This document shows positions 1,387 through 63,765 of a stretch of 64,000 nucleotides of DNA, one piece after another. The stretch is from contig CP136061.1 of the NCBI GenBank assembly GCA_032622095.1, positions 235,555,815 through 235,619,814 on the forward strand. The letters are read 5' to 3'. The position numbers were made by a program, and so were the translations under genes. The notes beneath the pieces were generated by a model that saw nothing but the letters and a program-made list of their open reading frames with translations, ran no database searches and had not been told where the DNA came from. This DNA is from Siphonodentalium dalli (Eukaryota > Mollusca > Scaphopoda > Gadilida > Siphonodentaliidae). The first letter of the stretch is position 1. Every line of letters starts with the position of its first letter.

Positions 1387-1984
1387 ATACAGAAAACATG
1401 TACGAAAATTTTAATTTTAAGTTTAGTCAGGTCGATCAACGTGCATCCCTATTCCCCCAGGATTAAATTTCATCAATGGTTTTTGTTCGTAAGGATGTCT
1501 GTTCAAACTATTTCGACGTTAAAAGGTGACTGCATGTACCGGGCAATATGGTGGCCAAGATGACCGCCATTTCCTGGAGTATACCACCACTCACTAACTC
1601 ATTACATAAACTTGCAACAAATCGCATTGTTCTTGTTGCCATGGCATATGCCTGTCATTTCATGCATAATTTGACTATAAAAATCCAAAATGGTGGCAGA
1701 AATGGCAACCGGAAGAAGTAAAATGAGCATTTTGCGTTAACGTTCACCACACATGTAAATTGCGCCATAGTTGCGCCACCATATATGGTGTCCAATCCTA
1801 ATCCGACAGTAGTAAGTCATATCCCGAGTTTTCAAAATGACGGTGAAAATGGTAATCGGAAGTCAACAATTGGAGTGCCTTTTGTTAATTATTAACTAAA
1901 TCTTCAAAAACCGAATACATGTATCGCCAATAAGTAGTTATATATATCCTATCATACGAGTTTCCAAATCCGGCAAATAGTTTC

Positions 1985-3010
1985 AGAATACATAAAATGA
2001 GTGTCCGAAACCACATATCGAGTGTACCAAACCATATCCTGAGTTACTAATCATCCACCTGGTATCCAAAACAAATATGTGAGTATTCCAATCATTACGA
2101 CAGTATACCCCAATTCCAAATATTGTCTTGAGTACATCATCGCAATCAACCAACGAGTTTCCCAAATCACAAAGTAGTGCCCCCCAAACCATATGCTACT
2201 GATGTCCCAACCCACACAGATAGTCACCCAACCAATGCACCTGGTGTCCCAACCCACACCATGAGTGCCCCAAGCCATCCAATGAGTGTTTCAATCAACC
2301 CGATTAGTGTCGCAGCCCATGCAACGATTGTTCCAAGTCACATTGCATGACAGTGCCCAAACCAATGCAACTGGTCTTCCAAACCACATAGGTTGTACCC
2401 AAATCACATAGATTTTGTCCTAAACAACCCAAATTAGTGTCCATAACCATCCATTTTTGTTCAAAAACATACCACGAGCACCCAACGAGTGCCCAATGAG
2501 TACACAATGAGTTTTCCAAACCACCCAGCGAGTGTTCGAAACGAAAATAGTGTTTAATATGCATCCAATATGTACTCGTGTCAAACAAGTAGTGTCCCAT
2601 AGCATTCGAGGAGTGTCCTATGCCATATAACAGGTATTCCAAACCACCAACTGTCGTCTCAGTCCAGTCAACGTCCCAAATCTGTGAATCAATCAACCAA
2701 CAAGTGTCACAATTCACCAAAACTAGTGTTCCATATCTATCCACACAGAGTGCCCCAAACCACCCAATTGGTGTCACAAAACTATCCAATGGGTGTCACA
2801 AACCATCCAGCGGGTGACCCAAACCATAAAACTGGTATCATAAACCATCCAATGAGTTCCCAATCCACCCAACTGGTGTCAGAAACCATATACTGTCATC
2901 TTAATACATCAACAAATGGTGTACAAAACATTCCATACTCCGTGGAGTATTTAAGTCCATCAAATGAGTGTTCCAAACGATCCAATTGGTTTACGAAACC
3001 ACGACACACT
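1985..3010 (+). repeat. Degenerate minisatellite, forward orientation (copy A)
   Basis: About 1 kb made almost entirely of variants of a unit of roughly 22-28 bp, with consensus near gtgtcccaaaccacccaacga. The unit length drifts and no two neighbours are identical. Reading frames across it are proline-, asparagine- and histidine-rich, but these are by-products of the repeat and not genes. Confidence 0.85.
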
Positions 3011-3059
3011 CCCTTGTTGGATTGAGATATTCTATGAATAATTTTGTACAATTATTATA

Positions 3060-3600
3060 GTTGGGATAATCATTAGTTCAGGTGGTGTGGGATATTCTGT
3101 ATGCGGTTGTTTTAGACACTTGTTGAATGTTATTTAGACACTCCTGGTTCTGATGATTGGATGGTTATGGACACACATTGATTGGTTTGGGACACCCAGT
3201 GGATGGTTTGGGGTTCTCAATTGATGGTGTGAGACGCTCGTTGAGTGGTTTTGGGACACCATGCGCATGATTTGGGACACTCTCTGGGAGATATATGAGA
3301 ATCGTTGGATGGTTTGGAACACTCATTTGGGCGGGTTTGGTCAGCATTTGGGTGGTTTGGGATGCTAGTTGGTTTGATTGGAATACGTATTGGGTGGTTC
3401 GAGACACTAGTTGGCCGATTTGTGACACCCGTTCTGTGGACTGGGTTTGTTTGTGCAGTATATTAATTATAATGGTGGCTTGAGACACACGTTGCGTTGA
3501 TTTACGCTCCTTTGATGGTTTGGGACCCTCGTAAGTGGGTGTGAACACTCACTGGATATATTTGGATATCCTATTGTTGCTTTGGACACCCATCTGAGGC
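3060..3600 (-). repeat. Degenerate minisatellite, inverted orientation (copy A)
   Basis: The same motif as 1985-3010 but on the opposite strand (tggtttgggacactcgttg...). The two arrays face each other across about 50 bp, forming a very large imperfect inverted repeat. Confidence 0.85.
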
Positions 3601-4004
3601 GTATAGGATTATTGGCTATAAATTATATTCGATATGAGAAGATTTAGTAGAAATCATCGAAAATATTTTGATTTTCGATCGCCAATTTTTTCGACGCCAT
3701 TTTGGGACACCGAAGTGACAAATTATCGGTATATAGCTCACTATTATCGAATTAGAATTTGACATCATATACGGTGGTGCAACTAGCCATTTACGCCAAT
3801 AGTTTTTGGTGCGTCTAAATGGAAACAATCTGGTGAACATATGCGAAAATTGTCCAATTTTATTATTTTTGTCCCTAATTTGGAAAGTGATGTTCTCATC
3901 TCTGGTAAACGGGCACCAGTGGTTCATATCGGTCATTATCGGACATCTAATTAGTATCAGTATACTGGGTGTTCGATTTCGGATATTCTGGGCATTGTTT
4001 AAAT

Positions 4005-15661: not shown

Positions 15662-15675
15662 ACGTCAACATCCAT
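15662..15675. repeat. 14-bp target-site duplication of R1 copy 1 (left)
   Basis: acgtcaacatccat occurs here and at 16659-16672, immediately outside the two ends of the R1 copy between them. A duplication of this length is typical of target-primed reverse transcription. Confidence 0.8.
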
Positions 15676-16658
15676 GATTTATTGATTGATTGATAGATTG
15701 AGGGTTTAACGTTGTTTTAGCCGCAAGGCCATATCTCAACCAAGAACAGAATCATGTATAACAAAAATCGTAGCGAAGCAACAGTGCAGATAAATCAGAC
15801 AGTGGATTAGATTAAAACAATGCAATGATGAGCTATGTACAAATAAAAGCACACAAGAGGAATGTGTCCACTTGTAGTCAGGAATATAATTCCATGAACT
15901 GACTAGTGAGCAATCATACTATAAAACGTATAAAAGTAGTACAAGAATAAATAATAAATAGCAAATAAATAAGACGGAATTACCAAGGAGCCGCATCGGA
16001 ATATATAAAGTAGCTTTTTAAATCAGATTTTGCCGTGATAAGGTATTTATAATATTTGATGAATCCCACATGAACATTTACAATGCGTCAAGCTGGTGGT
16101 CGGGTGGGTGAGACAGAATGCCACCCTTCCTCAACGGACAGCCTCGATCCACAAATACTGTTTCTTGTCTTTGGGAATTTCTCATCAATCATATTGTCAA
16201 ATTTTGAAAGCTCAAAGATGTACCTCTCTTTCTGAGAGTCGAAACGTTTGGGTGACTTTGGCGATCTTTGTTTCGAAGCAACAGGCGATTTTTCTTTTGG
16301 AACAATAGGATCAAATTGCATAGATTGTTTCGGGGGAAATGTCTCAACAACAGAAGCTGTATCCATAACCTGCGCTTCAGGTTCTGGAACAGGAATAATA
16401 TTAGTCGCCTCAACTTGTGTTGCTATATTGATATACTGACGAGTTTGGTTTGACTCTGTCTGAGTGCTGGCATCAACACACTGTGTAGGCACGATTGATG
16501 AGTATATGACATGTGGAATGGATGGTCGAGGACCAACTATTTTCTTAGTATCTATATCTTCTCAGCTTTACAACGGCAAACAGGGTGCCACATATTAGGC
16601 GATTCTTACCACTCGCAGTGGGGTTGTAGGCCTATTCTACCCCGGGCCCACACGGGGG
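15676..16658 (-). mobile_element. R1 copy 1: compact ORF1-only non-LTR element
   Basis: 983 bp, minus strand, between 14-bp duplications. From its 5' end (16658) it has a leader ('gtgtgggcccgg', 'ccccactgcgag') shared with copies 3 and 4, then the C-terminal part of an ORF1-like protein (16088-16492). A 3' region of about 400 bp follows, shared with copies 2 and 3, and a TTGATTGATTGA-type tail (plus-strand reading, about 15680-15699). The N-terminal and zinc-knuckle part of ORF1 is missing through an internal deletion, yet the ends and duplication are intact. No endonuclease or reverse transcriptase is present. Confidence 0.75.
16088..16492 (-). pseudogene. ORF1 C-terminal remnant (R1 copy 1)
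   Basis: An open stretch of about 134 codons on the minus strand. It holds the 'CVDASTQTES' motif, which recurs as 'KCVDASNQTES' (25.2 kb) and 'KCADASTQTDN' (63.3 kb), and a later 'VPEPEAQVMDTASVVE' segment matching 'VPEPVSQAMETSTEVA' at 63.2 kb. The rest is rich in K, S, P and E and is probably disordered. In this family the segment follows the CCHC zinc knuckle, which is absent here. It ends at a stop where the shared 3' region begins. It is a fragment: no start of the full protein is present. Confidence 0.7.
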
Positions 16659-16672
16659 ACGTCAACATCCAT

Positions 16673-17144
16673 CAATTAAATACATGTATTTTAAAGTAAA
16701 ACGACCTGCATTCATTTATCATGCTGGCATATTAGCTTGACCAATGAGAATGGAGATCTACTGCCAGGAGGTGAGGGCATATTAGGCAATCAGAACTAAC
16801 TTCGTCCGAATTTGTATCCTAATTCGAAATGCCCGATTTCGACGAGCGTGTGCCGAATGCATATTAGGTTCACCGACCCCATATTGAAAACCCCCAGGGG
16901 GTATATGCATATGGGGTCGATAGACGCCATCTTGTTTTCTTGGAGATATTTTCAGTGTATCTTGACACCAAGAAAGGCATATCAGTCGGAACACATTTTC
17001 TGCTAATTTAAATACATAGTGTATACCATGCACCAAAACCTGCATGATATATTTGAGGAATTCTAAAGACTCATAACTGTCAAACTCAGTGTGTTGTCCT
17101 ATTTCTTTTGATTAGCCATTGATAAAATCGTTACAGGACATTTA
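16673..17144. other. Spacer with no recognisable gene
   Basis: No supported coding region. Only short chance frames are seen. Confidence 0.5.
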
Positions 17145-17231
17145 GTTGCCGGATACGGTGACATGTGAGGCTCACTGAGATATTAGGCCATAATCTCACT
17201 TCACCATAAACATCACACCGTATCCTGCAAC
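17145..17231. repeat. Short inverted repeat
   Basis: gttgccggatacggtg at 17145-17160 pairs with caccgtatcctgcaac at 17216-17231 (15 of 16 positions). The loop is 55 bp. It may be a tiny fold-back element; no flanking duplication is evident. Confidence 0.6.
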
Positions 17232-18011
17232 AACTCGCCCTGTAGCTTATAATTATGCTATATATACTGTACCAGTCGAACTGGTCTGATATTCATAATC
17301 ATTTGTTTTGTCTACAGCAAATTGCATTCTCCATGATAAATGTGGGCCATCCAGATTCCGGAAGTCGCGAGGGAGCTTACATCGTTTCATGTTCCGTTGC
17401 CGGATGCAATAACACGTGCAGTTGTTCCCGAGTAATTCCATTAGCCGAAGATACCACGAAAAGAGATGTGAGATAACCAAGTTGTTGGAACTATCGCCGT
17501 CACCGCGGAGAATCCCAGTCATTGAATAAAGAAATTAAAGCGACAATGACGCTGTAGTTCAAACTAACAATATACTGGAGTCAGGTGGGTTTGCATTTTT
17601 TTTCTTCAGAATTCGTAAAGCAAATGAGTCAACATCTATATTTGAGGTAATATATAATCATGGAACTTATATAATTAATCTGATCAGATCCACGTTCAGA
17701 TCCTTCCTTACATGTTCAATGTGCTTTATATCCAGCGAAGATACTAAATGTGTCATAACATATTAGCAGAACCCCACCTATCTTGTCCTATGTTTAGTGG
17801 AGGTTGCTATGTCTACATGGAATTTAATGTAGAAATGCATAACTCAAACAAATCAGGCCGAATCATGGGGAGTCCATGGGTATTCCCCATTGTGTCCATA
17901 TTACCCCTACCCGCTTTACCCTATATACTGATAAACAATAAAGTCCATGTTTATAGGGGAGTCAGGCTCATCAGCCAGGATATCTATATATGTAGTCGTG
18001 GCTTATGTTAA
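17232..18011. other. Spacer with no recognisable gene
   Basis: No recognisable domain, RNA gene or repeat. Short frames on both strands overlap one another and look random. Confidence 0.45.
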
Positions 18012-18329
18012 ATGGGCACTGTACTCTAAATCCGGCCATTTATGGGACCATCCCCTTTTATACAAATGAATGAATTTGAGCCATGGATGAGTGCAAAATA
18101 CACCCATTTATGAACGATACAAACAACATGGTAATTATAATGAAAATGAATAAATGGCTGGAGTTGTAAATTCAATTTCATTATAATTACCATGTTGTTT
18201 GCGTCATTGAGCACGTGAGTGTATTTTGCACTAATTAATGGTTCAAATTCACTCATTTGTTGCATATATTCTGTTGAGTATAAAAGAAGATGGTCCCAAA
18301 AATGTCCGGATTTAGTGTAGAGTATCCAT
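18012..18329. mobile_element. TTAA-flanked fold-back MITE, 318 bp
   Basis: TTAA lies at 18008-18011 and 18330-18333. The two halves are near mirror images: atgggcactgtactctaaat on the left against, inverted, atggatactctacactaaat on the right. The arms continue inward to 'aacaacatggtaattataatg' on both sides of a short centre (about 18150-18185). A solo arm of the same family is at 12360. Confidence 0.85.
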
Positions 18330-18333
18330 TTAA

Positions 18334-19330
18334 CCCTTTTTATACTAAATTGATTCTCCCATTCATATCAGTTATAATATTATACATTGGAGTGGTCTAT
18401 TATTCATATGCCTCCAAAACTCAACAGCAGTGTGGCAAGTGTGACTACTTCTGGGATTCTCGGGCAAGAAAGAAGACGATATTCTAAAGAGTTGAACGCA
18501 AAACACAGTTATAAACGTAAATCGATCCAACGAACAGCGATTGTTTCCCAATTGTGGTAGGTAACATAGGTGACTCTATATAAACGATCTTGAGTCATCG
18601 ACCAATTGCGTGCTGGCATGTATACTGTTCCTAAAGCATGCATGCAGGCCAGAAGATAGCGACGAATGCGGTACTTTCCGTGGCAGAGATAATGGGTCAT
18701 CACGACATTGTGGGTCGTGTATGCCGGAAGACGCAAGGTATCGCGAATATGGCCTGCTAAACGTTAACATCGATGCCTATGGAAGACGTTAATTTCTTGA
18801 ACTTATTTCTAAATTTATTTGGTTATATTCGCAAAATTGTTTATGAAATCACCAATTTGATTTCCGTCAGTTTACCGAGTACACATCTCGCGTTTACGAC
18901 TGGCTGCCGCGCGCCTGGTGCATCCATCCGGTACACATCTCGATTTTTATTACCTGACTGCTTCGTGCCAAAGATGCATGCATAATTAAATAAATATTCT
19001 GTTTTATATTCGAGTTATTGCCATTACAGTAACGACCTCGAGGGTAATTAGAAATGGCGATCTTGTCAATTATATCCACGCAATTTGGTCGATCTATAGC
19101 GTTCCGACAAATACCGGCAACTGTAGTCGGCAGACGCATATCTAGACATATACAAATATTATAATAGCCGTAAGACCATTGCTCGTACAAACATGGTAAT
19201 GACTTTACACTTACACAATGCTTAATGTGTCAGATTGTTTTCGTTTAAATTTTTTTATTGAGGAAATAAATATAACAAGATGAGGCACACACATTGGAGT
19301 AACGATACATTGAGGCATTTAATATTCTTG
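18334..19330. other. Spacer with no recognisable gene
   Basis: Nothing identifiable. The stretch just before 19331 (19240-19330) is A/T-rich and precedes R1 copy 3. Confidence 0.45.
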
Positions 19331-19630
19331 CACCCGTGTGGGCTCGGATAAAATATGCCTACCGCCCCACTGCGAGGGATAAGAATCCCCTAATGTGGTA
19401 CCCTCTTTGCACAGGGGTGCATCATATGTGTAGTGTAGGAGTCCTGGTGTTATTAGGGTTACCGTACCACTTGGGACATCGACCTGCGGATATGACTTAG
19501 CTCATGGTCCACTTTGGTCCTACATCTCTTCATGACATGTGGTTGAGTTGACCCGGCTCAATCAATCGGTTAGTCACGCCTCACATGTGTTTCAGATTCA
19601 ATTTGTGTTAGCTGTTATATTGCTCATCTT

Positions 19631-20660
19631 ATGTTAGTTATGTATGAAGTATTATGCTTAGTTCGGATGGTGCTGGGGTATTCCACCAGTACTTGGTTCT
19701 TAGCTGCGACCCGAATATTAAAAGAGTCATTGATAAGACACTTTTTAAATATTGCTGGACAATTGAAATATGTCAAACCGATCAGGACCGAACAAATAAC
19801 CGGCTCTCTCCTGAATGAATGTGAAATGAAAGTTCAATCTGATGCTTTGTTGCAGTTAACAGCTATTTCACAAACACCAGTCACGATTGCTCCACACAAA
19901 ACATTGAATATTAGCAGAGCAGTTTTGAGAACCCGCGATATCTCCGACTCTTCTCAGTCGGAGATATTGGCTGAGTTGGCAGCCCAGGGAGTTACTGATG
20001 TTCGCAGATTTTGTAAGACAGTTGATGGACTAAAATTCATTTGCATAGTTATCGTTTGACTTTCAATCAGTGCGACCATCCGCCGGCACTGAAAGTTGCA
20101 TATATGAAGATGGGTTTGTCTACATATGATCCAAATCATTTACGTTGTTTTAAATGTCAGGGGTATGGTCATGGCCAGGAATATTGTAAAAGTAAAAAAT
20201 GCCACACGAGCACGCTGTTTTGCTTCTGGTCATGATCATCAGATTGTATTAAAACTTTAAAGGTTCACATGCTGCAATGGACCGTTCATGTCTCATGGGA
20301 CTATGAATTCAAACATCTATCATAATTATGTCGATACAAAGAAAATAGTTGGTGCTCGATCATCATCTCAATCAGTAACATTCTCTACAAAAAAAGTGGG
20401 ATGATGCCAGCACTTGGACAGTCAGCAGCCAGACCAGCACTATTCGTGTATCATGTACGCACAAGCGATACAACTTGAGGTAACTGCTATAACTCCTTCC
20501 CTGAACCTGTGTCGCAGGCCATGGAAACGTCTACGGAAGAGGCACCCGTTGCTAACAAACTATCCGCTCAAGTTGAACCAGTTACTGCGACACAGTCTAC
20601 TCGTGTTGATGCTATTTCTCCACAACAAAAATCGCACCGACCGACGCATTGACAAAGGTT
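19631..20660 (+). pseudogene. ORF1-like (gag/nucleic-acid-binding) pseudogene of R1 copy 3
   Basis: Remnant of the ORF1 protein of a non-LTR retrotransposon; such proteins coat the element's RNA. In one frame (19631-20059) it has the conserved segment 'SEILAELAAQGVTDVRRF', which is characteristic of this family's RNA-binding region. A frameshift near 20040 moves the reading to a second frame with 'LRCFKCQGYGHGQEYCKSKK', a CX2CX4HX4C zinc knuckle at 20146-20187. After further shifts the DNA still reads 'SHAAMDRS'-like and 'SQAMETSTEEAPVAN'-like segments and stops near 20654. Several frameshifts and in-frame stops make it a pseudogene. Family membership is fairly secure; the clade (I/Jockey/CR1) is not. 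Confidence 0.8.
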
Positions 20661-20783
20661 CATGCGCGATTCATCAAATAATATAAATACCTTTACATAT
20701 TTTGATGTGCAGCCTTGGTGATTTCGTGTTATTTATTTTCTATTTATGATGTATTCTTATACTGCTTTTATACGTTTTATATA

Positions 20784-20791
20784 GCATGCTT
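20784..20791. repeat. 8-bp target-site duplication of hAT MITE (left)
   Basis: gcatgctt here is repeated exactly at 21118-21125, directly outside the element ends. Confidence 0.9.
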
Positions 20792-21117
20792 CAGGGTTGG
20801 GGTAATCGTAATCAGTAATCGTAATCAAAGTAATCGATTACAAAATTTTGAGTAATCATCTGTAATCAGTAATCATGACATTTCTTAATTACAAGTAATC
20901 GTAATCGATTACTTTCAAATGTACCTGTAACCATGATTACATTTTGATTACTTTTTGATTACTTTTACCAAAATATCCATATGGATGGCTATTGTAATTG
21001 TAATAGTAATCGATTACATTGGAAAACATGTAATCAGTAATCGTAATCGTAATCATGTAAATCAAAAGTAATTATAATCGTAATCGATTACATTGGCATG
21101 TAATCACCCCAACCCTG
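20792..21117. mobile_element. hAT-type MITE made of GTAATCGATTAC repeats, 326 bp
   Basis: The ends cagggttggggt / accccaaccctg are perfect 12-bp inverted repeats flanked by perfect 8-bp duplications, which is diagnostic of hAT transposition. The interior is unusual: it is almost wholly permutations of gtaatcgattac, gtaatcagtaatc and their complements. It sits in the 3' region of R1 copy 3. Copy 1 shows the uninterrupted equivalent near 15915 (inverted). Confidence 0.92.
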
Positions 21118-21377
21118 GCATGCTTGCCCACTAGTCAATTCTTGAATTTATATTCCTGACTCCAAGTGGAAACATTCCCCGTGTGCGTTAATTTGTACAT
21201 ATAGCTCAATATTTTAATCTCATCCACTTTCTGAGTTACCTACACAGATGGTTCGCTACGATCGTTTTTTAAACGTGATTCTGTTCTTACTCATTTTTGC
21301 TCGCTCTCAAGTGATGTATAATTTCACTTGGTCCAATCTCTCACTGCCGACATTAAGGAAAGCATACACTGAGCATA

Positions 21378-21797
21378 TGTGACCCGCCATATCAAATCCA
21401 GTCATAAGTCGGAATTCTTTTTACCCTGTGCCAATGCATTCTCTTATATATGCGAGTCGACCATAGGTAGCCTCGCATATATAAGAGAATGCATTGGCCT
21501 AACAATTTTTTACAATTTTAATAATTTTTTCTTGTATTCTTTAACAATTTTATAATTTCACCCATACAGAGCCCCAGACAGACATGATCAGACGACACTC
21601 TTCTATATGCTTCTATATATGTGTGGGGCTCCCTGCAGGGTAATGGATGTTTTTTATTTTATGTCCTAAAAATTGTAAGAAACATTTATTTAAAAAAATG
21701 ATAAAAAATTGTTAGGCCAATGCATTCTCTTATATATGCGAGGCGACAGGGTAAAAAAAATCCTGACTTACGACTGGATTTGATATGGCGGGTCACA
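21378..21797. mobile_element. TA-flanked MITE carrying the hairpin module, 420 bp
   Basis: The terminal inverted repeats are about 50 bp, beginning TGTGACCCGCCATATCAAAT, with TA on both outer sides (21376-21377 and 21798-21799). That fits a Tc1/mariner-like TA target. Inside lie one full copy (21430-21498) and one half copy (21716-21748) of the 69-bp hairpin otherwise found in TTAA elements. No transposase is present. Confidence 0.85.
21430..21498. repeat. 69-bp palindromic hairpin module (in TA-flanked MITE)
   Basis: gccaatgcattctcttatat...atataagagaatgcattggc: near-perfect arms of about 30 bp around a short centre containing 'accataggt'. It differs from the copies at 23.9 and 57.6 kb at about one position. 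Confidence 0.9.
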
Positions 21798-21799
21798 TA

Positions 21800-22421
21800 T
21801 ATAGATTTGATGTGGTATAGTTCAGTAGATTGTTATACCGATGGCCATTCGGTGACACAACGAGCATGCTCTTAATGAAGGATGTCAGGTTATATAGTTA
21901 TATAAAGAGTTCAGTTTGGCGCAGATAAATTCATACTCGGCAATTTGATGATCGAGTTGAGAAACGATTAATGTAAATTTGAGAGATAGCTCGGGTTCCG
22001 GGCTTAATATATATATAACTGTGTTATCCGGGGTATATACATGTATATAGCTAGTTTTCTACGGGGAAATCAGCAAGTCAATCAGTTGTCTTGTTAATGA
22101 CATTGTATAAGAGTAGCTATAGCTTTGGAATGTGTCAGATTTATGGAGGCATGACTCAACATGAGTGTTCATTCAACTTCATTGCTTCATTGTTCGTGAA
22201 CACATTCTCATTTCTTATCGAAATGTCGCATATTGTATATATATATCCATGTTCTGCATTAACCTGCAGCTTTGATAATTAAAGCTTTAACAGTTACCTA
22301 TTATATTATGTATATGCTACGAAGAGATTATACAAACCAAGTTAATTATACTATCCCAAATCCCATATCACCATATTGTAGGCATCTTCAAGATTTGGCT
22401 TTTATGTGTCATTGTACGCAC
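21800..22421. other. Spacer with no recognisable gene
   Basis: AT-rich sequence with no domain or clear repeat. Confidence 0.5.
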
Positions 22422-22524
22422 ATAATCTGCTCAGAATCGCCTCATTATGAGTCGATAACGTGACTAAATGCCCTAATTTTCAGCACATTATCGACTCAAA
22501 ATGAGGCGATTCTCAGCAGATTAT
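22422..22524. repeat. Fold-back inverted repeat
   Basis: The 41-bp left arm (22422-22462, containing gcctcattatgagtcgataa) pairs with 22484-22524 with a few mismatches. The loop is about 21 bp. No flanking duplication was recognised. Confidence 0.8.
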
Positions 22525-22743
22525 CAACCTAAAACAAGTTCTATTTGTAAGCAGATAATGGGCGGATTTTTGGGAGAACAGGTTGAACAAGCAACTGCAC
22601 AAAATAAAGGAATCGGTTTCCGTCGATTTGTATGGAAACCCTTAATTATACCACGAATGATAGAACTAGCTTTTACATCGCTGTACGCATTATATATATC
22701 AACCTCTTGTGGTGTGAACACCGCCAACAGGCCTGAAAATATG

Positions 22744-23160
22744 GTGCCGGACATTTGCAGAATGATGTCACCAGAGGGTGAATTCAGCACAGCGGGATCG
22801 CGTCCCCAAATTCATCCAATTGGGACCTCATTCTGCTGACCTCATCTGCTATTGGAGACCTGTACACAAATTTAATTTCCCAGACAGTGAAGATGGTGAT
22901 GTGCACCAATTGGCCACCTCGATTATGCATGGTGTCGTCTGCCAATTTGGGGATATAGAGAAACGAAACTAAAATAAAAGAATGTTTCTGAAGTTTCTAA
23001 AGAAACTAAACAAATTGTTAATTTGATAATAAAGATAATTTCAAGAGAAGATGAGGCCTAAACAGAATGAGGTCCCCAGAGGGTCAATTTAGTTATGCTC
23101 TGTGGGGGTAGCGTCACTAAATTCACCTTCTGGGGACCTCAATCTGATAATGTCCGGCAC
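22744..23160. mobile_element. Possible MITE with GTGCCGGACATT ends
   Basis: gtgccggacatt at 22744 is mirrored by aatgtccggcac ending at 23160. The inverted similarity continues inward around 'accagagggtgaattcag' and 'ctggggacctcaatctg'. aatat flanks the right end directly and the left end with one base between, so a target duplication is only suggested. The frames across 22501-22839 have no known domain. Confidence 0.5.
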
Positions 23161-23164
23161 AATA

Positions 23165-23815
23165 TTATAAGGCCTGGCGACCAACCGAGCCACTCTATGA
23201 CCCTCACTTTCAGGATTGACGTCGCCTATTTCTTGGGCTGATACCTCGAGGACAATTATCGAGAGACGCTCTCAATTCCGTGATCGATGAATATAACAGG
23301 ATAAGTTGTCAAAGTGGTCACTTACGGTCTCTCGAGGCGGCGTATCACCGAGACGCGTATAATGCAATGCAAACACCCCATTGGATTCCATGAATGATTC
23401 CGACTAGATACATCAATAGGCCGACCATCTTGTGTGAAATTAACCAAATTAGACTGGACATCCTTTTGAAGTGGATATCCCTAGATTACAAAAGGATCCT
23501 ACCGGATCGAAACCAGGCAGCCCGAGCCGCATCGTAATGAGTGCTATCCCATCGCGTAAATCGTGACTAATTCTGGCTAATTGAATTTTCTACGACTGGA
23601 CACTGTGTCTCATATCTCAAGGAATCCATTCGAGAAACGACCGAATGGCCCTGTATGCTAAATCCGACATCGATATTGTTCGCTTCGAAGTGATATACTG
23701 TGTATAGCAGCAAAGCAATAACGTTTTAGCTTCAGATTCCAGCAGTGTGAGGATTTTGCAACAATGTTCTATCCAGATCCAGAGCGCTTTATGCTGGAGA
23801 TTATGACTATGTTAT
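23165..23815. other. Spacer with no recognisable gene
   Basis: Somewhat higher GC than its surroundings. No domain or repeat was recognised. Confidence 0.45.
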
Positions 23816-23847
23816 ACTGGTTGATTGATTGGTTGATTTGAGTTTAA

Positions 23848-24413
23848 CCCTTTACACAACAACGGCCCTGTGCCAATGCATTCTCTTATATATGCGAGTC
23901 GACCATAGGTCGCCTCGCATATATAAGAGAATGCATTGGCTTAACATATTAAAAATGATAAAAATGTAAGAAAAAATTATAAAATTGTTGTAAGAAAAAA
24001 TGGTAAAAAGTGTTAAAAAAAGATTTTTTTTAGGCCAATGCTTTCTCTTATATATGCGAGGCGACCTATGGTCGACTCGCATATATAAGAGAATGCATTG
24101 GCTTAACATATTAAAAATGATAAAAATGTAAGAAAAAATTATAAAATTGTTGTAAGAAAAAATGGTAAAAAGTGTTAAAAAAAGATTTTTTTTAGGCCAA
24201 TGCTTTCTCTTATATATGCGAGGCGACCTATGGTCGACTCGCATATATAAGAGAATGCATTGGCACAGGGTATAACTGTAACCATCACAATGTTGTCAAT
24301 GAGCCGGTTCCAATGATATCCATATTTGTATGGTTTTATTGAGACAGACCCAAGATAATTTAGGCTGTTGCAGCTTTATTTGGCCGTTTTTGGCCGGTTT
24401 GTTGGGTAAAGGG
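23848..24413. mobile_element. TTAA-flanked MITE with three hairpins, 566 bp
   Basis: TTAA lies at 23844-23847 and 24414-24417. The ends are ccctttacacaac and gttgggtaaaggg (inverted, 12 of 13). The interior holds three copies of the 69-bp hairpin (23871-23940, 24034-24102, 24196-24264), separated by A/T-rich spacers. Spacer plus hairpin is an exact 162-bp tandem duplication (spacers begin at 23941 and 24103). The sister element at 57568 has two hairpins. No coding capacity; the repeated peptide frames on the minus strand are by-products. Confidence 0.92.
23871..23940. repeat. 69-bp palindromic hairpin module, first of three
   Basis: Arms gccaatgcattctcttatat / atataagagaatgcattggc around a centre containing gtcgaccataggtcgcc. 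The same sequence recurs at 21430, 24034, 24196, 57594 and 57742, with half or degenerate copies at 9716-9830, 21716 and 58009-58130. Confidence 0.92.
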
Positions 24414-24469
24414 TTAACATCGCTTCAGCCGCTAGTTCAGATCATAATCATAGAGACAAAAACTATCGT

Positions 24470-24530
24470 AACGAAGCACAAACTTGAAATTAATAACTTT
24501 CATATAGAAAATACTAAGCATCTTCTCTGT
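24470..24530 (+). other. 55-60-bp fragment of another LINE inside R1 copy 2
   Basis: 'cttgaaattaataactttca' and the following bases match, inverted, 27930-27990 in the second LINE, where the sequence reads 'KLETNNFHIENTKHILCG'. R1 copy 1 lacks this block at the corresponding place (near 15770-15790), so it is an insertion in copy 2. Confidence 0.7.
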
Positions 24531-24785
24531 GCGTAACACAGACAGTGGATGAGACTACTAGTAAAACAATAAGCTAAGCTTGGAGCCAGGAAATATAATT
24601 TCAAGAACTGACTTGTGTGCAAAAATTTACATAAATCACATACAATTAGCACGAGAAGTCATGTGGAATACACAATAAAATTGCAAATAATGAAATTAAA
24701 TTTATCAATTAAGGCTTCACATCGCAATATGTTAAGTATTTTTTAATGTCGGATTTTGCAATGACATGATATTTATGAATCGGGC

Positions 24786-26040
24786 GTGAGCCTTTAACAA
24801 TGCGTAAAATTGACGGTCGGGTGGGTGACACAGATAAGAAGGTCGTCTTTCACCCAACCGGCAGCGTCAATTCACACATCTACTGTTTGGTGTCTTTCAA
24901 AGTTAAACGTTTTTCTTCAAGCATCGTGTCAAACTTTGAAAAAACTCGAATACCAACCTCATTTTCCGACAGTCAAACTATCTTGGGAGATTTTGGCGAC
25001 TGTTTTGGAGCAACATGCTCAACTTGAGTAGAATATTTTGGAGCAACTGGCTCAACTTGAGTAGATTGTATTGAAGCAATTCAGTAAATGTGCCCATGGC
25101 CTGTGGTGCATGCAGATTCTGGAACAGAAGCAATATCGGTCTCTTCAACTGGAGTAGCTATAGCGATACATTGACTATTTTGTTCTGACTCTGTCTGATT
25201 GCTGGCATCAACGCATTTCCTTGCAGACACAATCGCAAAAAAGGTGCAATGTCCAGCTGATGGTCGAGGTCCAGCAATTTTATGAGCGTCTGGAAATGAG
25301 AGTTGTTTCTCAGCTTTACTTTTATGTACTTTAAATTCATACTGCCCAGAGTCGAGAGTATAGGCAGGGAGACCACAGACACATACTTTATTTTGTTTTA
25401 AACATAACACACTGAGCGCTATGGTAATGTATTACTTTACAATTAATGGACCCATGCATGTTGTTTTGTGCAATTCGTATGTTCGTGACCTGGGCCAGAA
25501 TACTGCACATATGATGTCTTTGTTCTTACAGTTCTCTTTGCCATGGCCATACTTCTGACATTGAAAACACCGCAAAGGGGATGGTACAAAAGTAGTCACT
25601 GAAAGTTTCATGTATCCAACCTTCAGCTCCGGTGGGAGTTTAGACCGATCGGTGGTCAGAACATAGATGTTTAATAATACTTTCTTTCATCCAATTTGTT
25701 TGAGCATTCTGTGAACATTTGTGACTCCAAGTGGAGGCAACTCAGCCACTATCTCAGACTCATACGAATCACATTTCAGGGGTTCTCTATACACAGCCCT
25801 AAGGTCTATGGTGAGTAACCAATACATGTGTTTGTGCAAGAGATGTTAACTGTAATGTCGATCGTCAGATTGATCTCTGTTTGAACATTCAATCGGGAGA
25901 GAGCCATTTACTGGCCAAGTCCAGATTGGCTTGACATATTTCAATTGTCCAGAAATATTTGAATCGTTTAAATATTGAATACAGATATGATCGACGAAAA
26001 TTTCTGAAGGATTGGATTCCCACATGCAGATGAAACAGTT
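24786..26040 (-). pseudogene. ORF1-like (CCHC) pseudogene of R1 copy 2
   Basis: Minus-strand remnant of the same ORF1 protein as at 19631. It carries a good zinc knuckle, 'RCFQCQKYGHGKENCK' (25529-25572), preceded by 'ELKVGYMKLSVTTFVPSP', as expected for this family. Downstream are 'KCVDASNQTESEQ' (about 25190-25215) and a tail with repeated 'QVEPVAPK'-like residues. Upstream DNA (25700-25960) aligns with the 'EILAELAAQGVTDV' region of copy 3 but is broken by stops and shifts. No intact frame spans the domain, so it is inactive. It ends at the shared 3' region. Confidence 0.8.
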
Positions 26041-26110
26041 TATGTGGATTCCCTCTCAACTTTGCGGAATGTGTCTACATTTTTATTCCTAGCCACACAT
26101 AAGGCTACCA

Positions 26111-27080
26111 CGGCACTTTCTCATACGCTGGATTCTTTGTATTTTGGAACCGTACGCCGGCATATAAATGGATCCCATCTATAGCGAATACCCAAGAATT
26201 CAGCCATTTACTTTATATTCGCAACAGGCTTCGGCTGTCCATATCGCGTAACACATATATATTAACCGATAATCTCACTGTTAATATGATTGTAGTACTA
26301 TAATTTGTTCCTGTGTCATATAATACGCGGTAATTATAACTATAATGTGCCTATAATATTTCCGCCACTGTTCGATGGATAACATTTTGACACTTGGGTC
26401 AAAACTATGAACCATATACTGAGTATATATCTCAGTGGCGATGTGACGTAGCAGGTCATCATTCCTACGTTCAATACGTGGTTTTTGTTTGTTAGTTTGA
26501 GTTGCCATATGAAAAGCAAATATCTCCATAATATATCGCCCAAATGTATTTGCTGTAGCCCATATAGCGAATCGATGTACTGCTGCAATTAACACAAACA
26601 AATGATAGTAGTTTGAACATTGATGTACATATGTATCACGTTGCCCATTACAATATCTTGGTATAGCTTAGTGTGCCACCAATGAGTTGAATTTGGTATA
26701 TTCTGTTCCCACATAGGTCTGTGTACTGGAAACGCCCAAATCCGTTGCGCTGGTGTACACAATTTTAAATCAGACTGTGGTAATGTGACACATCGAATAA
26801 AGATATTTGGAATCTTCAACACAGCACGGATTGTCATACCACCTTATCATGTACTCGGTTGCTGCTTATACAGCTCTTTTTTGTAGATAGTATATAAAAT
26901 TCGATTTGATATTTTGTCATAGTGTGTACGTTAAGTCACAAACAGCGTAAATTGCCAGGGGAAGACAATGGAATTTTCTCCATGTGTAGCATAATCATGT
27001 CAACCACGCAGGCGTGTGTGTGTGGGGTCCTAATCTGTGACTCCTGGCATCCTGTCATCGGTGACATCTCCAGTCTCTTT
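26111..27080. other. Spacer with no recognisable gene
   Basis: No domain-bearing frame and no strong repeat. Confidence 0.45.
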
Positions 27081-27550: not shown

Positions 27551-28135
27551 ATTTTATTGTATATCAATTATATACATGGGATTGGGAAACAAGTTGTGTC
27601 AACTTAGTGACGTCCCTCTCCCGCACAAAAGGTGTAACATAACATTTAAACAAGATGACAGGATGAGATATGTGAATATTTAAGCAGGGAAACAGATGTG
27701 AATAAGTGTGCAGAGTGTACTATGAGTGGGGTTTTATTGTGTCCAGTTTTTCCCTGACGTTGTCATAAGTTGTGTCTAAAAGGGTCAGGCATTTAAATTT
27801 TAAATAGTTTTCAATGACAGGTTGTCATAATAGAGAAAAATATATGTTACCCAAAACGTTTGGTTGCAGTAATGTTGGACTGTGTAATTTGAAATAGCAA
27901 TATATTTCTTCTGTGATCATTTTCAGAGATTCCACAGAGAATATGCTTAGTATTTTCTATATGAAAGTTATTAGTTTCAAGTTTGTGGTAAAATAGTCTT
28001 CTCTGGTTGGTGAACAGTGGAAGAAGAAATGACTATAGCATCCTCCTTCGGGAAACCGCATTGACATTTAGGACTATCTGCTATGTGATTATTGTGCATG
28101 TCACTCTTTAAGTATAGCTACAATAATTTCCGAGC
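27545..28135 (-). mobile_element. 5'-truncated 3' fragment of a second LINE family
   Basis: Minus strand. Segments read 'DSPKCQCGFPKEDA', then 'KLETNNFHIENTKHILCG' and 'RNILLFQITQSNITATKRF'. This is the Cys-rich C-terminal domain of ORF2 in another LINE group, with at least one frameshift. It is followed by a 3' region containing 'ccctctcccg' that recurs at about 55725-55830 and 57235-57330. It lies within the older LINE. Confidence 0.7.
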
Positions 28136-28139
28136 TTAC

Positions 28140-28790
28140 AATGGTTCACACTAACCTTCCGTCTATGACAAACGAAGGGAGCTTATTCCACTCATGTGTT
28201 GTGTTTAGGAAGAATGAATTCCTATAATGTGCGGTTGTCCAGTGGTACGAGTATAAAAAACGCGGTTGTTTAAAATTGTACCGGTTGTTTGATATGTGTG
28301 CTGCCCGGGCTGGTAGAAGTAGGGTGAGATAATCTGGAGTTTCTTCATTGGTTATTTAAAAAAGTGTTTGTAGGTGGTGTTTCTCCCTGAGCTCCCTAAG
28401 GTTGGACCACCCCACTTCGAGTAAAGCATTTGTATTGGAGACAGAGCGGGTTAACCCGGTCACTATTCTGGCGGCGTCCACGTGTATACGTTCAAGTTTG
28501 TCCATCCAGTATTGTGGTGCATAATCCCAAAATGAATCTGCATAATCCATTATTGTTAGAACGTAAGTTTTGTAATTTTTTTCTAACGTGTTTGCACTTA
28601 AGCTGTATTTGAATCGTCTTATTTGTGAGATGCGGGACGAAACTCTCTTCATTATATTATTAATGTGATCGTTCCAGTCTAAATTTGATAGAATATTTGA
28701 ATTTCGACACCAAGGTGTATAAATGTATGTGACGTTTCGAATGAGATGTTTTGGTCTTGAAATACAAGTGTGGGGTTTGTTTGTTTGCCC
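28140..28790 (-). pseudogene. LINE reverse transcriptase, post-catalytic region
   Basis: The minus-strand open stretch at 28356-28690 contains 'LDWNDHINNIMKRVSSRI', 'TLEKNYKTYVLTIMDYADSF' and 'LERIHVDAARIVTGL', the well-known thumb and post-RT segment of CR1/L2-like LINEs. The preceding 'HTFIHLGVEIQ' lies in a different frame, which shows a frameshift near 28700. Downstream to 28140 further conserved residues ('YLTLLLPARAA', 'EWNKLPSF') can be read. It is interrupted and not functional. Confidence 0.85.
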
Positions 28791-28812
28791 GATAACCAGG
28801 GGGGGGGGTCGG

Positions 28813-30102
28813 AAAAATTTCCAGACACGTATGCTACTTTTTGCCGATGACCACTTTTTGGACCCACACACCCTCGACCCCAATTTTTTTTCCATTTCAT
28901 AGAGTTTTTTCCGGCCATGTTTTGACACCCACCCCTTGTGGAACGCAAAACACAAACACACAGAGAGAACCAGGACCAAACCTCCTACATTGAGATTCAG
29001 TGAATCCAGTAATGAACAACAGGACTGGTCTCTAGCAGTATATTCTTGACTGCAGTGGATTTTGTCCCTAGAAACACCATATTCACACTATATATGACCA
29101 TGGAAATACTATAGATTTGTGCAAGAGATGCTGATTTAAAAAAAAAAAATAGAGCTCTCGAGGACTGAGACACCAAAGCTCCAGGAATGAGACATAATAT
29201 TTTTGGGACAGGGAAGCTGATAATCGGAAAATAGGGTTTTTTCCCTGATTTAAGTCAAGAAGTAAACCATATGAGGTAAGCAAGTCCTCATGCAGTGACA
29301 CCACATGCATGCTATATAGTATATGATCATAGTAATGGCCCAAATATGTGCAAACATACATTAAAAAACATCATATAAAAAATTACTACAGTTCTGGGAA
29401 GGAGACATCAATTCTTTGGATATAGGGATGCTGATAATATGTAATTAGGGATTATCATAGTTGAACACATACTCACAGTTGACTGTTTAAAAATACCTTA
29501 TACAATGTAGGCTATACGTTCGATTTAGCTATATATAAGAAATGAAATTGGTCAGTTGAAATTGGAATAACGATAGGTGCTAGTGAGCTAGACAGCAAGT
29601 ATTCCGCTGACTAAAAGTTAACTGTGTATCATGTATGTTCTGTGGTTGTGATGCCAGTGGGAGGGATGTGCATGACATCTCTTTTGTCACATATGAGATA
29701 ATTGTGTTATCCACTCACACGTCTAGGTAATACTAGTAGGTATGTTACATGTTTATACATCAGTGTTTAATGTCCATGTTTGACCAGATTTGGCATTAAA
29801 TTTATTTCTTTAAAGTTATCCTTATTTGATGTTAATTACATAGAATACTGCATGGGTGATTCAGCTGCATTAAGAATACTTTCCCTTGTAATAAAGAGGC
29901 ACATACCAACATCCAATGGCCCTAGTGTGTTTAGTGTTGCTGCAGTTCCTTATTATTGATTGCATAGTGTTACAAACCAGTACAAACAAGTAAAAATCCA
30001 ATAAAAGGTGTGAAGGAAAACAAATAATTTTGTCACGGAAAAAATTGCTTTGGGCTTATTTTGACACCCACCACCCCCAGCATACGTGTCGGAAATTTTT
30101 TT
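28813..30102. mobile_element. 1.29-kb inverted-repeat element inside the LINE
   Basis: The left end 28813-28835 (aaaaatttccagacacgtat...) is inverted at 30079-30102 (agcatacgtgtcggaaattt...). The match is about 22 of 24. The LINE RT coding sequence stops at one end and resumes at the other. A run of G lies just outside the left end (28799-28808). No transposase frame is seen. The target duplication is not clear. Confidence 0.65.
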
Positions 30103-57567: not shown

Positions 57568-57959
57568 CCCTTTACCCAACAGAAGGGCCCTGTGCCAATG
57601 CATTCTCTTATATATGCGAGTCGACCATAGGTCGCCTCGCATATATAAGAGAATGCATTGGCTTAACACATTAAAAATTATAAAATTGTTAAAGAATGTA
57701 AGAAAAAATGGTAAAAAGTGTTAAAAAAAGATTTTTTTTAGGCCAATGCATTCTCTTATATATGCGAGGCGACCTATGGTCGACTCGCATATATAAGAGA
57801 ATGCATTGGCACAGGGCATAACTATAACCATCACAATGTGGTCAAGGAGCCGATTCCAATGATATCCATATTTGTATGGTTCTATTGAGACAGACCGAAG
57901 ATATTTTAGGCTGTTGAAGCTTTATTTGGCCGGCTTTGGCCGGTTTGTTGGGTAAAGGG
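57568..57959. mobile_element. TTAA-flanked MITE with two hairpins, 392 bp
   Basis: TTAA lies at 57564-57567 and 57960-57963, with perfect 13-bp ends ccctttacccaac. It holds hairpin modules at 57594-57662 and 57742-57810. It is the sister of 23848-24413 but has one fewer spacer-plus-hairpin unit. Confidence 0.93.
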
Positions 57960-57963
57960 TTAA

Positions 57964-58190
57964 CCCTTCGACGACAAGAGCTTCCTGAAATTTTGCAATA
58001 GCCTGTGGCAATGCATTCTCTTATATATGCGAGTATCACATAGGGAGCCTCGCACATATAAGAGTACATTGCCATAATAATATTTTCCTTGACCGTGTTA
58101 GTCAGTGCATTCTCTTATATATGCGATGATTCCCATGCACCAGCACATGATCTTTAATGCTGCACCAGTGCAGCGCACACCATGAAAGGG
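57964..58190. mobile_element. TTAA-flanked MITE adjoining the previous one, 227 bp
   Basis: It shares the TTAA at 57960-57963 with its neighbour and has TTAA at 58191-58194. The ends are cccttcgacg and, inverted, ccctttcatggtgtg, like 9671-9879. It contains degenerate half-hairpins (about 58010-58070 and 58107-58127). One of the two adjacent elements must have inserted into the TTAA of the other. Confidence 0.85.
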
Positions 58191-62785: not shown

Positions 62786-63064
62786 AATTTGCCATGCATT
62801 CTTTTGCAGGTATTTCGGTATAGAGGGCTAGAATGTGCCAGAAACCAAACGCGAAAATGCTTATCAAATGCAAATTTTCCGCGCCTAACTACATGATTAG
62901 TCAAATGTATGTATGTCCACCAGTAGCGATGCATTTGTCCTGCACATATCATGCAATTATCTCATAAGAATCAATAATACAGGTATTTAAGGCAATGTGT
63001 TAGTAGCACCGTTACATTTGGAACTATCGAAATGTTACTTCTCATTTCGGTATATAGTTTTGAG

Positions 63065-63765
63065 TGATTTTAGCGATTTTTGTTTTGAAGCAACATGATC
63101 AACATGCATATATGATGTGTTGTAGTAACTGGCTCAATTTAATTGGATTTGTTTATTGGAATAACTGTTGCAACTTCGGTAGATGTTTCCATGGCCTGCG
63201 ACACAGGTTCAGGAACTAAAGTGTTATCGGTCTGGTCAAATTCTGTTGCTTGCGCTATACGAATGATGTTGGTTTGACTGTTGTCTGTCTGTGTGCTGGC
63301 ATCAGCACACTTTTTTGTAGACACGACATGAGTATGTGATTGATGGTCAAGAACCAACTATTTTCTTTGCAGCGAAATAGGATAGATATTGCTCAGTCCC
63401 ATATGGAACACGTATACGATCCATTGCAGCATGTGAACCTTGATAGTTAGAAATTGTATGTGGTGGTTTGGTGCCATCCTTATGGTCTTTGTCCAGAATC
63501 ACAACTAGACAACAGGACCAAAATACAACAGATGACAGAAATGTAATCTGTAACACTGTCGAAAGGCGTGACCAGCCGATTGATTGAGTCGGATCAACTC
63601 CATCGTCCGCCTTGACGAGATGTATAGGACCGAAGAAGACCACGAACTAAGCCGTATCCGCAGGTCGATGCCTCATGTAATACTGCCGCCCTATAGTACC
63701 TCAAAGACTCCTGCACCAAACCTCACGGGATGTACCCCACGACAAACAGGGTGCTACATTATATT
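63065..63765 (-). mobile_element. R1 copy 4: 5' leader plus ORF1 remnant, minus strand
   Basis: 63555-63765 matches, inverted, the leader of copy 3 ('gattgattgag', 'ggtcgatg', 'agggtgctaca' blocks). 63065-63470 is the ORF1 C-terminal half. The ORF1 part between them, including the zinc knuckle, is missing. The 3' region is not recognisable below 63065. Confidence 0.75.
63139..63470 (-). pseudogene. ORF1 remnant (R1 copy 4)
   Basis: On the minus strand, 'GSHAAMDRIRVPYG' and 'SYFAAKKIVG' (63365-63460) are the segment that follows the zinc knuckle in this protein family. After a stop, 'KKCADASTQTDNSQTN' and 'VPEPVSQAMETSTEVA' (63150-63330) continue in another frame. It is a pseudogene with at least one shift; the CCHC knuckle is deleted. 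Confidence 0.75.

Follow-up and report, generated by a model that had tools for sequence, protein, structure and literature searches.

How can a repeat move when the only protein gene found in it is the ORF1 of a long interspersed nuclear element (LINE)? The question is raised by a 64,000-nucleotide stretch of the scaphopod mollusc Siphonodentalium dalli (GenBank assembly GCA_032622095.1, contig CP136061.1, positions 235,555,815 to 235,619,814 of the forward strand), hereafter the window, which holds four copies of a family in which an ORF1 with a CCHC region is combined with a conserved 3' region. A sequence-only reading of the window had inferred that this family kept ORF1 and the 3' recognition region and relies on the ORF2 of another element, and our analysis supports that inference: ORF2 was not found in the family, the join between ORF1 and the 3' region is shared among its subfamilies, and a full-length relative exists in the same genome. 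The family is very likely a non-autonomous, ORF1-only derivative of an RNase-H LINE, which we take to belong to the I superfamily, using LINE-encoded ORF2 in trans. Its earlier nickname, "R1", is a label only and is unrelated to the rDNA "R1" clade. The host genome comprises 2.23 Gb in nine contigs; genomic loci fetched for the analysis carry L-numbers (L001, L002 and so on), L001 being copy 1 of the window again and L020 a duplicate of L019.

In its complete form the element measures about 2.1 kb and consists of a 5' untranslated region (UTR) of about 300 bp that opens with the motif GTGTGGGCCCGGGGTAGAATAGGCC, a spacer, a single CCHC ORF1 and a 3' UTR of about 310 bp, which closes with a hairpin and a CAAT-type repeat tail. 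The aligned ORF1s fall into subfamilies A (n = 11, including L020) and B (n = 20), with L095, L101 and copy 3 of the window outside both; the C-terminus ends FDVAPW before the stop in the A majority and FDVQPW before the stop in the B majority. The copies in the window and their parts are as follows.

15676-16658 (-): copy 1, a subfamily A member with an internal deletion; retains the 5' 80 bp, the ORF1 C-terminus, the 3' UTR and the tail
15662-15675 and 16659-16672 (unstranded): target-site duplication of copy 1, perfect, 14 bp, ACGTCAACATCCAT
16576-16656 (-): 5' end of copy 1, with the GTGTGGGCCCGGGGTAGAATAGGCC motif, common to the element and the autonomous LINE described below; positions 3-80 of the 5' UTR query matched
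15983-16570 (-): ORF1 C-terminal part of copy 1, decayed and frame-shifted; stop of the C-terminal frame at 15980-15982
15703-15745 (-): 3' hairpin region of copy 1, common to the LINE and to families resembling short interspersed nuclear elements (SINEs)
19331-21288 (+): copy 2, subfamily B; 5' UTR, ORF1 with CCHC region and part of the 3' region, without tail
19657-20642 (+): ORF1 of copy 2, decayed; 42-52% identity to the LINE ORF1 in two stretches
23820-26528 (-): copy 3, the most divergent and the sole subfamily C copy seen; tail, 3' region and ORF1, 5' limit at least 26528
24579-26508 (-): decayed ORF1 of copy 3 with the beginning of the 3' region; start region of ORF1 at 26508
63059-63762 (-): copy 4, internally deleted; part of the 5' UTR joined to the C-terminal half of ORF1, no 3' region seen after it

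The three copies first described in the window are all real; their number rises by one with copy 4, and the third, previously ended at 26110, reaches further, as listed. The C-terminus of the ORF1/CCHC protein does lie directly before a common 3' region in these three copies, as had been noticed, but this region of supposedly some 400 bp is not all untranslated, since the first ~150 bp of the 465-bp stretch that we used as a query encode the ORF1 C-terminus. Two copies had been credited with a TTGATTGA-type tail; these are copies 1 and 3, copy 2 stopping before the tail. In copy 1, a deletion fuses the first ~80 bp of the 5' UTR to the ORF1 C-terminus, and the 14-bp target duplication reported for it is a perfect repeat that none of 500 and none of 300 shuffles reached.

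Beyond the window, all 40 genomic places scored with the 465-bp 3' stretch (the window's own included) match it at 85-100% identity, so that the likeness of the 3' regions is far beyond chance. Up to three mismatches allowed, 405 places match 41 bases of the 3' end, a count to which a small C4 tandem array, and perhaps tails of related elements, contribute; likewise, 271 places, LINE copies among them, match the 25-base 5' motif with at most one mismatch. First-look candidate numbers, ranging from 1596 to 3865, are rough. Family copies are dispersed over all nine contigs and bear marks of target-primed insertion, namely a variable tail repeat and target duplications in several copies. Among nine copies tested with mismatches allowed, the duplication was reached by none of 300 shuffles in four (copy 1, L003, L013 and L022); weaker duplications were found in L017 (reached by 5 of 300 shuffles), L012 (20 of 300) and L102 (6 of 300; far from the end and doubtful), and none in L005 and L011.

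We then searched for ORF2 in 48 family sequences, comprising L003-L022, L092-L111, L001, L002, L046, L051 and the four window copies, or 46 non-redundant ones after removal of L001 and L020. The sampling of L003-L022 should favour the discovery of ORF2: ten of these loci (L003-L012) were picked by ORF1 and had no 3' region seen adjoining it in the ORF1 search, and ten (L013-L022) were picked by the 3' region and were missing from the list obtained with the joined query; L092-L111 are 20 further loci. The endonuclease (EN), reverse transcriptase (RT) and RNase H regions of the related LINE match none of the 48 sequences (tblastn, E 1e-3), and its ORF1 matches 40 of them. The same three regions are unmatched in the 64-kb window at E 0.01, in keeping with the earlier remark that no endonuclease or RT lies between ORF1 and the 3' region. 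When 51 open frames from LINE loci L023-L042 and L056-L091 were searched against the family, the only match besides those of the L082-L085 frames was one of 52-54 amino acids in L015 (positions 1840-2001), a stretch that lies behind RNase H in other LINEs; it is situated about 0.5 kb upstream of a 5'-truncated copy and outside the interval from ORF1 to the 3' region. The six longest non-repetitive frames, from 65 of at least 60 amino acids located after ORF1 in eight loci, contained no RT or EN Pfam family. These queries cover the ORF2 of the related LINE and the open frames of the other LINEs fetched, and RTs of other clades could be missed by them.

The same sequences show what stands in place of ORF2. 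The sequence-only reading had asked whether most full-length copies carry ORF2 at the junction; in 37 of the 46 sequences, the 3' region instead appears no more than 200 bp after ORF1, and 28 of these 37 also match the 5' UTR. The remaining nine are L098, L106 and L111, which end within or just after ORF1 in the fetched stretch; L005 and L046, with gaps of 569 and 996 bp; L051, which has no ORF1; and L004, L007 and window copy 4, without a same-strand 3' region after ORF1 in the fetched stretch. In an alignment of 40 sequences, the join between ORF1 and the 3' UTR is identical in the A majority, the B majority and copy 3.

Because CCHC-type ORF1s often accompany RNase-H LINEs, we looked for a full-length relative with the RNase_H profile, obtaining 141 matches from 189 first-look candidates, and chose 20 3' flanks to cover distinct scores. 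Two of them share the last ~142 bp of the family, with 75-79% identity (E 2e-16 to 6e-24), and their near-identical C-terminal translations show that both belong to one LINE, the tail being present in both of its 3' ends that were read. Four full-length-type copies of this LINE begin with the family's 5' motif, in exact matches as in copy 1, and its 5' ends are 87% identical to the 5' UTR of copy 2 over 64-70 bp. One copy, L082, has an open frame of 502 amino acids, stop to stop, with an ORF1 homologous to that of the family; identities of the LINE ORF1 reach 117/256 residues with A and 131/303 with B (43-46%), and 86/259 (33%) with C. The EN (PF14529, PF03372), RT and RNase H of the LINE are pieced together from L082, L076 and L086, and target duplications, one of 12 bp and one of 14 bp, flank the two copies whose 3' ends were read. 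A 1.1-kb stretch of its ORF2 matches at 89-100% in 13 of 40 scored places (of 634 candidates), the query included and one match being partial; four other places are weaker or fragmentary, and the rest match only a satellite in the first ~180 bases of the query. On these 40 scored places of the 634, the relative is apparently a partly young and rare LINE with ORF1, EN, RT and RNase H, and we place it in the I superfamily on the assumption that RNase H marks that group. The comparison of the 3' tail with full-length LINEs that the sequence-only reading had proposed thus yields one LINE that shares the tail, the 5' end and ORF1 homology, as a HAL1-like origin predicts.

The other LINEs examined did not offer such a partner. 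Selection by top RVT_1 score gave 20 flanks reaching 0.7-2.7 kb past the RT match (L023-L042, being 20 strong matches of 150 scored, from 38731 first-look candidates), and the tail was in none of these flanks, the best match (E 0.015) lying outside the tail. Nor is the helper to be found in an RT-like ORF recognised by eye at 28356-29087 (-) of the window, where the tail core is absent and for which there is no Pfam match. Among other RNase-H LINEs, the ORF1-region frames of two (L088 and L090) have no match to the family and two further loci have no frame of 120 amino acids; the 5' pieces of these four loci, which may stop short of the element 5' end, do not match the 5' UTR. By eye, ORF1 of L088 and L090 is PHD-finger-like in place of CCHC. 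A second and decayed RNase-H LINE, L081, carries the hairpin core with 4 mismatches in 21 positions. With regard to the ORF1 protein itself, decayed pieces and the majority ORF1 gave nothing above the curated Pfam cut-off, and a PDB search with the LINE ORF1 returned only weak matches to retroviral zinc knuckles (E 0.05 and 0.08).

The 3' end held in common by these elements can fold. An outer stem around an inner hairpin is predicted for the tails of family member L002, the LINE and a SINE-like family (z of -2.1, -2.9 and -1.5), and no such fold for that of a non-coding family (z +0.6), so that three of four tails fold in this test. Row by row, the two-stem fold was obtained for 5 of 10 family sequences, 5 of 5 of the LINE (three with a weak outer stem), 2 of 2 SINE-like and 2 of 5 non-coding ones, rows without the exact core (family L005, L009, L011 and L017; SINE-like L053) being left out. 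The SINE-like and non-coding families came from a search for an RT partner with a tail pattern that negated the upstream bases, which found 54 and 363 places (100 of the 363 listed). Thirteen of the 54 were fetched and proved to be four SINE-like, five non-coding and two family relatives (L046 and L051), with L054 and L055 outside these groups; there was an RT partner in none. The SINE-like repeat (L043-L045, 96-98% identical, plus L053) has an end that is tRNA-type by eye and the same 3' hairpin, and its tail is also met in oppositely oriented pairs some 5 kb apart, as at C1:34679757+ and C1:34684728-. The non-coding family (L047-L050 and L052) has the 3' hairpin core of the ORF1-only family.

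Whether ORF1 was more than a relic was evaluated from its pattern of substitution. Between the A and B majorities, dN/dS is 0.212 (95% interval 0.149-0.301) over 392 codons, with 75.0 silent and 66.0 replacement changes, and the differences fall on 34 first, 25 second and 82 third codon positions. For the 90 C-terminal codons alone, the A-B ratio is 0.40 (interval 0.15-1.18). Single copies compared with their own subfamily give pN/pS values of 0.98 (B) and 0.64 (A). Over 34 copies, the third-position excess is 1.31 (1.21-1.42), as against a shuffled mean of 1.00 (sd 0.047), and is reached by none of 1000 shuffles. At least one in-frame stop, frameshifts uncounted, interrupts 30 of the 34 aligned copies (the exceptions being L014, L101, L108 and the short copy 1), and the A and B majorities are stop-free over 331 codons. 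In an analysis of shared variants and divergence by stretch, from parts of which L020 and copy 3 were left out, variants present in at least three copies were richer in third positions than singletons when A and B were taken together (p 5e-5). These patterns show that the source lineage carried ORF1 as an evolving protein gene. It was probably also kept in working order after the loss of ORF2; selection after that loss is the simplest reading because A, B and copy 3 share the join between ORF1 and the 3' UTR.

These values bear on the strongest competing explanation, by which the element is a passive passenger, a large SINE-like RNA equipped with the two ends of the LINE, whose ORF1 protein plays no part in movement. 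Copy 1 lends itself to this explanation, as it has a clean target duplication yet lacks most of ORF1: either it was mobilised with no ORF1 of its own, or the deletion arose upon insertion. The hairpin core is also present in SINE-like families that have no ORF1. A mere passenger is nevertheless hard to reconcile with the low dN/dS between the ORF1-only subfamilies, set against a nearer-neutral decay after insertion, and with majorities that stay open even though most copies carry a stop, and we regard it as unlikely.

Still less probable, in our judgement, is that each ORF1-only copy or subfamily separately lost ORF2 from full-length LINEs, without any ORF1-only lineage. The join common to A, B and copy 3 argues against independent deletions, as do the direct succession of ORF1 and 3' region in most sequences and the failure of ORF2 to match any; moreover, identity between the A and B ORF1s is 84% (275/327), against 43-46% between either of them and the LINE ORF1. 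Internal deletions do happen, copies 1 and 4 being examples, and selection on the LINE alone would also yield low dN/dS between ORF1s derived from it. There is equally little chance that a different RT, such as that of an L2/CR1-like LINE, moves the family and that the likeness to the I-superfamily LINE reflects old common descent, since the tail was absent from all 20 RT-selected flanks (few, given the 38731 first-look RT candidates) and is shared with the RNase-H LINE, and its hairpin core also with L081.

Some observations weigh against a derivative of this LINE with a selected ORF1. At the nucleotide level, nothing in the LINE matches the C-terminal domain of the family ORF1 or the beginning of the family 3' UTR, and the copies of the family have diverged further than most of the LINE copies recovered. 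The majority reading switches frame between codon 331 and the C-terminal domain, where a variable linker introduces gaps; in individual copies, L002 for one, a single frame runs across that stretch. Within A or B alone, the excess of third positions among shared variants is not significant (p 0.33 and 0.27), so that the selection signal rests on the split between A and B. Divergence between these is itself uneven: it amounts to 11-25% over most of ORF1, 6-7% at the zinc knuckles and about 4% in the final complete stretch of 100 columns, so that 3' ends may have been exchanged, or ORF1 swapped with that of sources not seen here. Finally, the inner loop of the hairpin is UAGC in the family and U-rich in the LINE. 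In zebrafish, L2 LINEs of the stringent type recognise the 3' hairpin in a loop-specific manner (PMC4176376). In this light the family may have had a helper other than the LINE found, perhaps a sister family of that LINE.

On balance, we favour an ORF1-only derivative whose ORF2 is presumably supplied by the LINE found or a sister. The element would keep the LINE 5' end, probably as a promoter, and the CCHC RNA-binding protein, which would be translated from the element's own transcript and coat the same RNA; we infer that ORF1 acts on its own RNA in this way. The 3' hairpin and the CAAT-type repeat would have been kept as the expected grip site for the LINE ORF2 protein, whose endonuclease, RT and RNase H would act in trans and copy the element RNA by target-primed reverse transcription at the 3' end common to both. 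More tentatively, and with the chances against it, the whole may be a long-lived split LINE system, in which an ORF2-less lineage of at least three subfamilies, with its own ORF1 under selection, lives on a rarer RNase-H LINE through the shared hairpin, beside SINE-like families that use it too, and maybe supplies ORF1 protein to the LINE in trans.

Several observations concern the organisation of family copies and the surroundings of those in the window. Five exact tail copies spaced exactly 1250 bp apart at C4:218341087-218346127 represent an element absorbed into a tandem array; nine exact copies of the 5' motif lie within ~2.1 Mb, all on the same strand, at C6:69755322-71898534; pieces of the 5' UTR are repeated about 267 bp apart at C5:44372476-44372955; and ORF1 of L098 is interrupted by a second element beginning at its own 5' end. 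The idea that a deletion like that of copy 1 was amplified as a short subfamily was discarded, as the match at C4:254152669 (L112) extends further into the 5' UTR, and the two 575-bp copies, L022 and L113, lie in the same flanking sequence (99.2% identity over 741 bp) and are therefore one insertion and its duplication. A splice-like origin of the copy 1 deletion is unsupported by eye at the join. Two window copies contain nested insertions, delimited by eye.

20792-21117 (unstranded): insertion nested in copy 2; its ends, CAGGGTTGGGG...CCCCAACCCTG, are inverted and its duplication, GCATGCTT, is 8 bp, a length that we assume to be hAT-like; rich in GTAATCGATTAC repeats
23848-24413 (unstranded): 566-bp insertion in copy 3, TTAA-flanked and presumably piggyBac-like, with ends CCCTTTAC...GTAAAGGG; splits the tail

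The second of these has internal 162-bp repeats, and similar palindromic units are located at 21424-21747 and 57576-58126. By eye, a stretch of ~50 bp near the 3' part of the decayed RT-like element (27930-27985, -) recurs in copy 3 (24480-24535, +).

ORF1-only LINEs are familiar from L1 (HAL1) and from fly telomeres (HeT-A), and the present family resembles both in its way of working and is a member of neither. Mammalian HAL1, which encodes only ORF1p and arose independently several times (PMC5753468), is likewise an ORF1-only, non-autonomous LINE derivative; however, it derives from L1 and has an L1-type ORF1, whereas our family is related to an RNase-H LINE whose ORF1 is of the CCHC type and whose 3' end bears a hairpin and a CAAT-type repeat tail. 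HeT-A is a non-autonomous element with Gag and without pol that obtains its RT from elsewhere, within the Drosophila telomere system that includes TAHRE and TART (PMC5537684). HeT-A and our family both have a Gag/ORF1-type protein, no pol gene found and an RT-bearing relative, but HeT-A, whose Gag is of the jockey clade, is added to telomere ends, unlike a family dispersed over nine contigs with target duplications in several copies. A mollusc survey lists Nimb, Ingi and one unknown clade for the I superfamily (PMC10294476). The LINE bearing EN, RT and RNase H has its two ends and ORF1 in common with our family, which differs from autonomous members of that superfamily in that ORF2, read in the L076/L082/L086 LINE, was not found in it. 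As in LINE-SINE pairs with a shared 3' tail (PMC4176376), the parasite retains the 3' hairpin and tail of its helper; it differs from such pairs in that it also carries the 5' end of the LINE together with a protein-coding gene that shows a signal of selection, and from SINEs, which have a pol III promoter and no coding capacity, in its coding ORF1. It is equally distinct from the R1 clade, rDNA-specific LINEs with ORF2, by the lack of an ORF2 match and the dispersal of its copies. Among the matches listed in the part of the open-licence literature covered, we recognised no ORF1-only family of the I superfamily, which is not to claim its absence from print.

The family thus adds a further ORF1-only case, this one tied to an RNase-H LINE and with a signal of selection on ORF1 in a lineage without ORF2. 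It bears on the question of whether ORF1 works on its own RNA, and hence must be kept, while ORF2 can be borrowed. Together, the LINE, its ORF1-bearing parasite and the SINE-like families with related 3' hairpins form a natural set for examining what ORF2 requires for recognition. If the split LINE system were true, there would be an ORF1-only lineage in the I superfamily, and it would point to a repeated origin of half-LINEs where ORF1 serves the RNA that encodes it.

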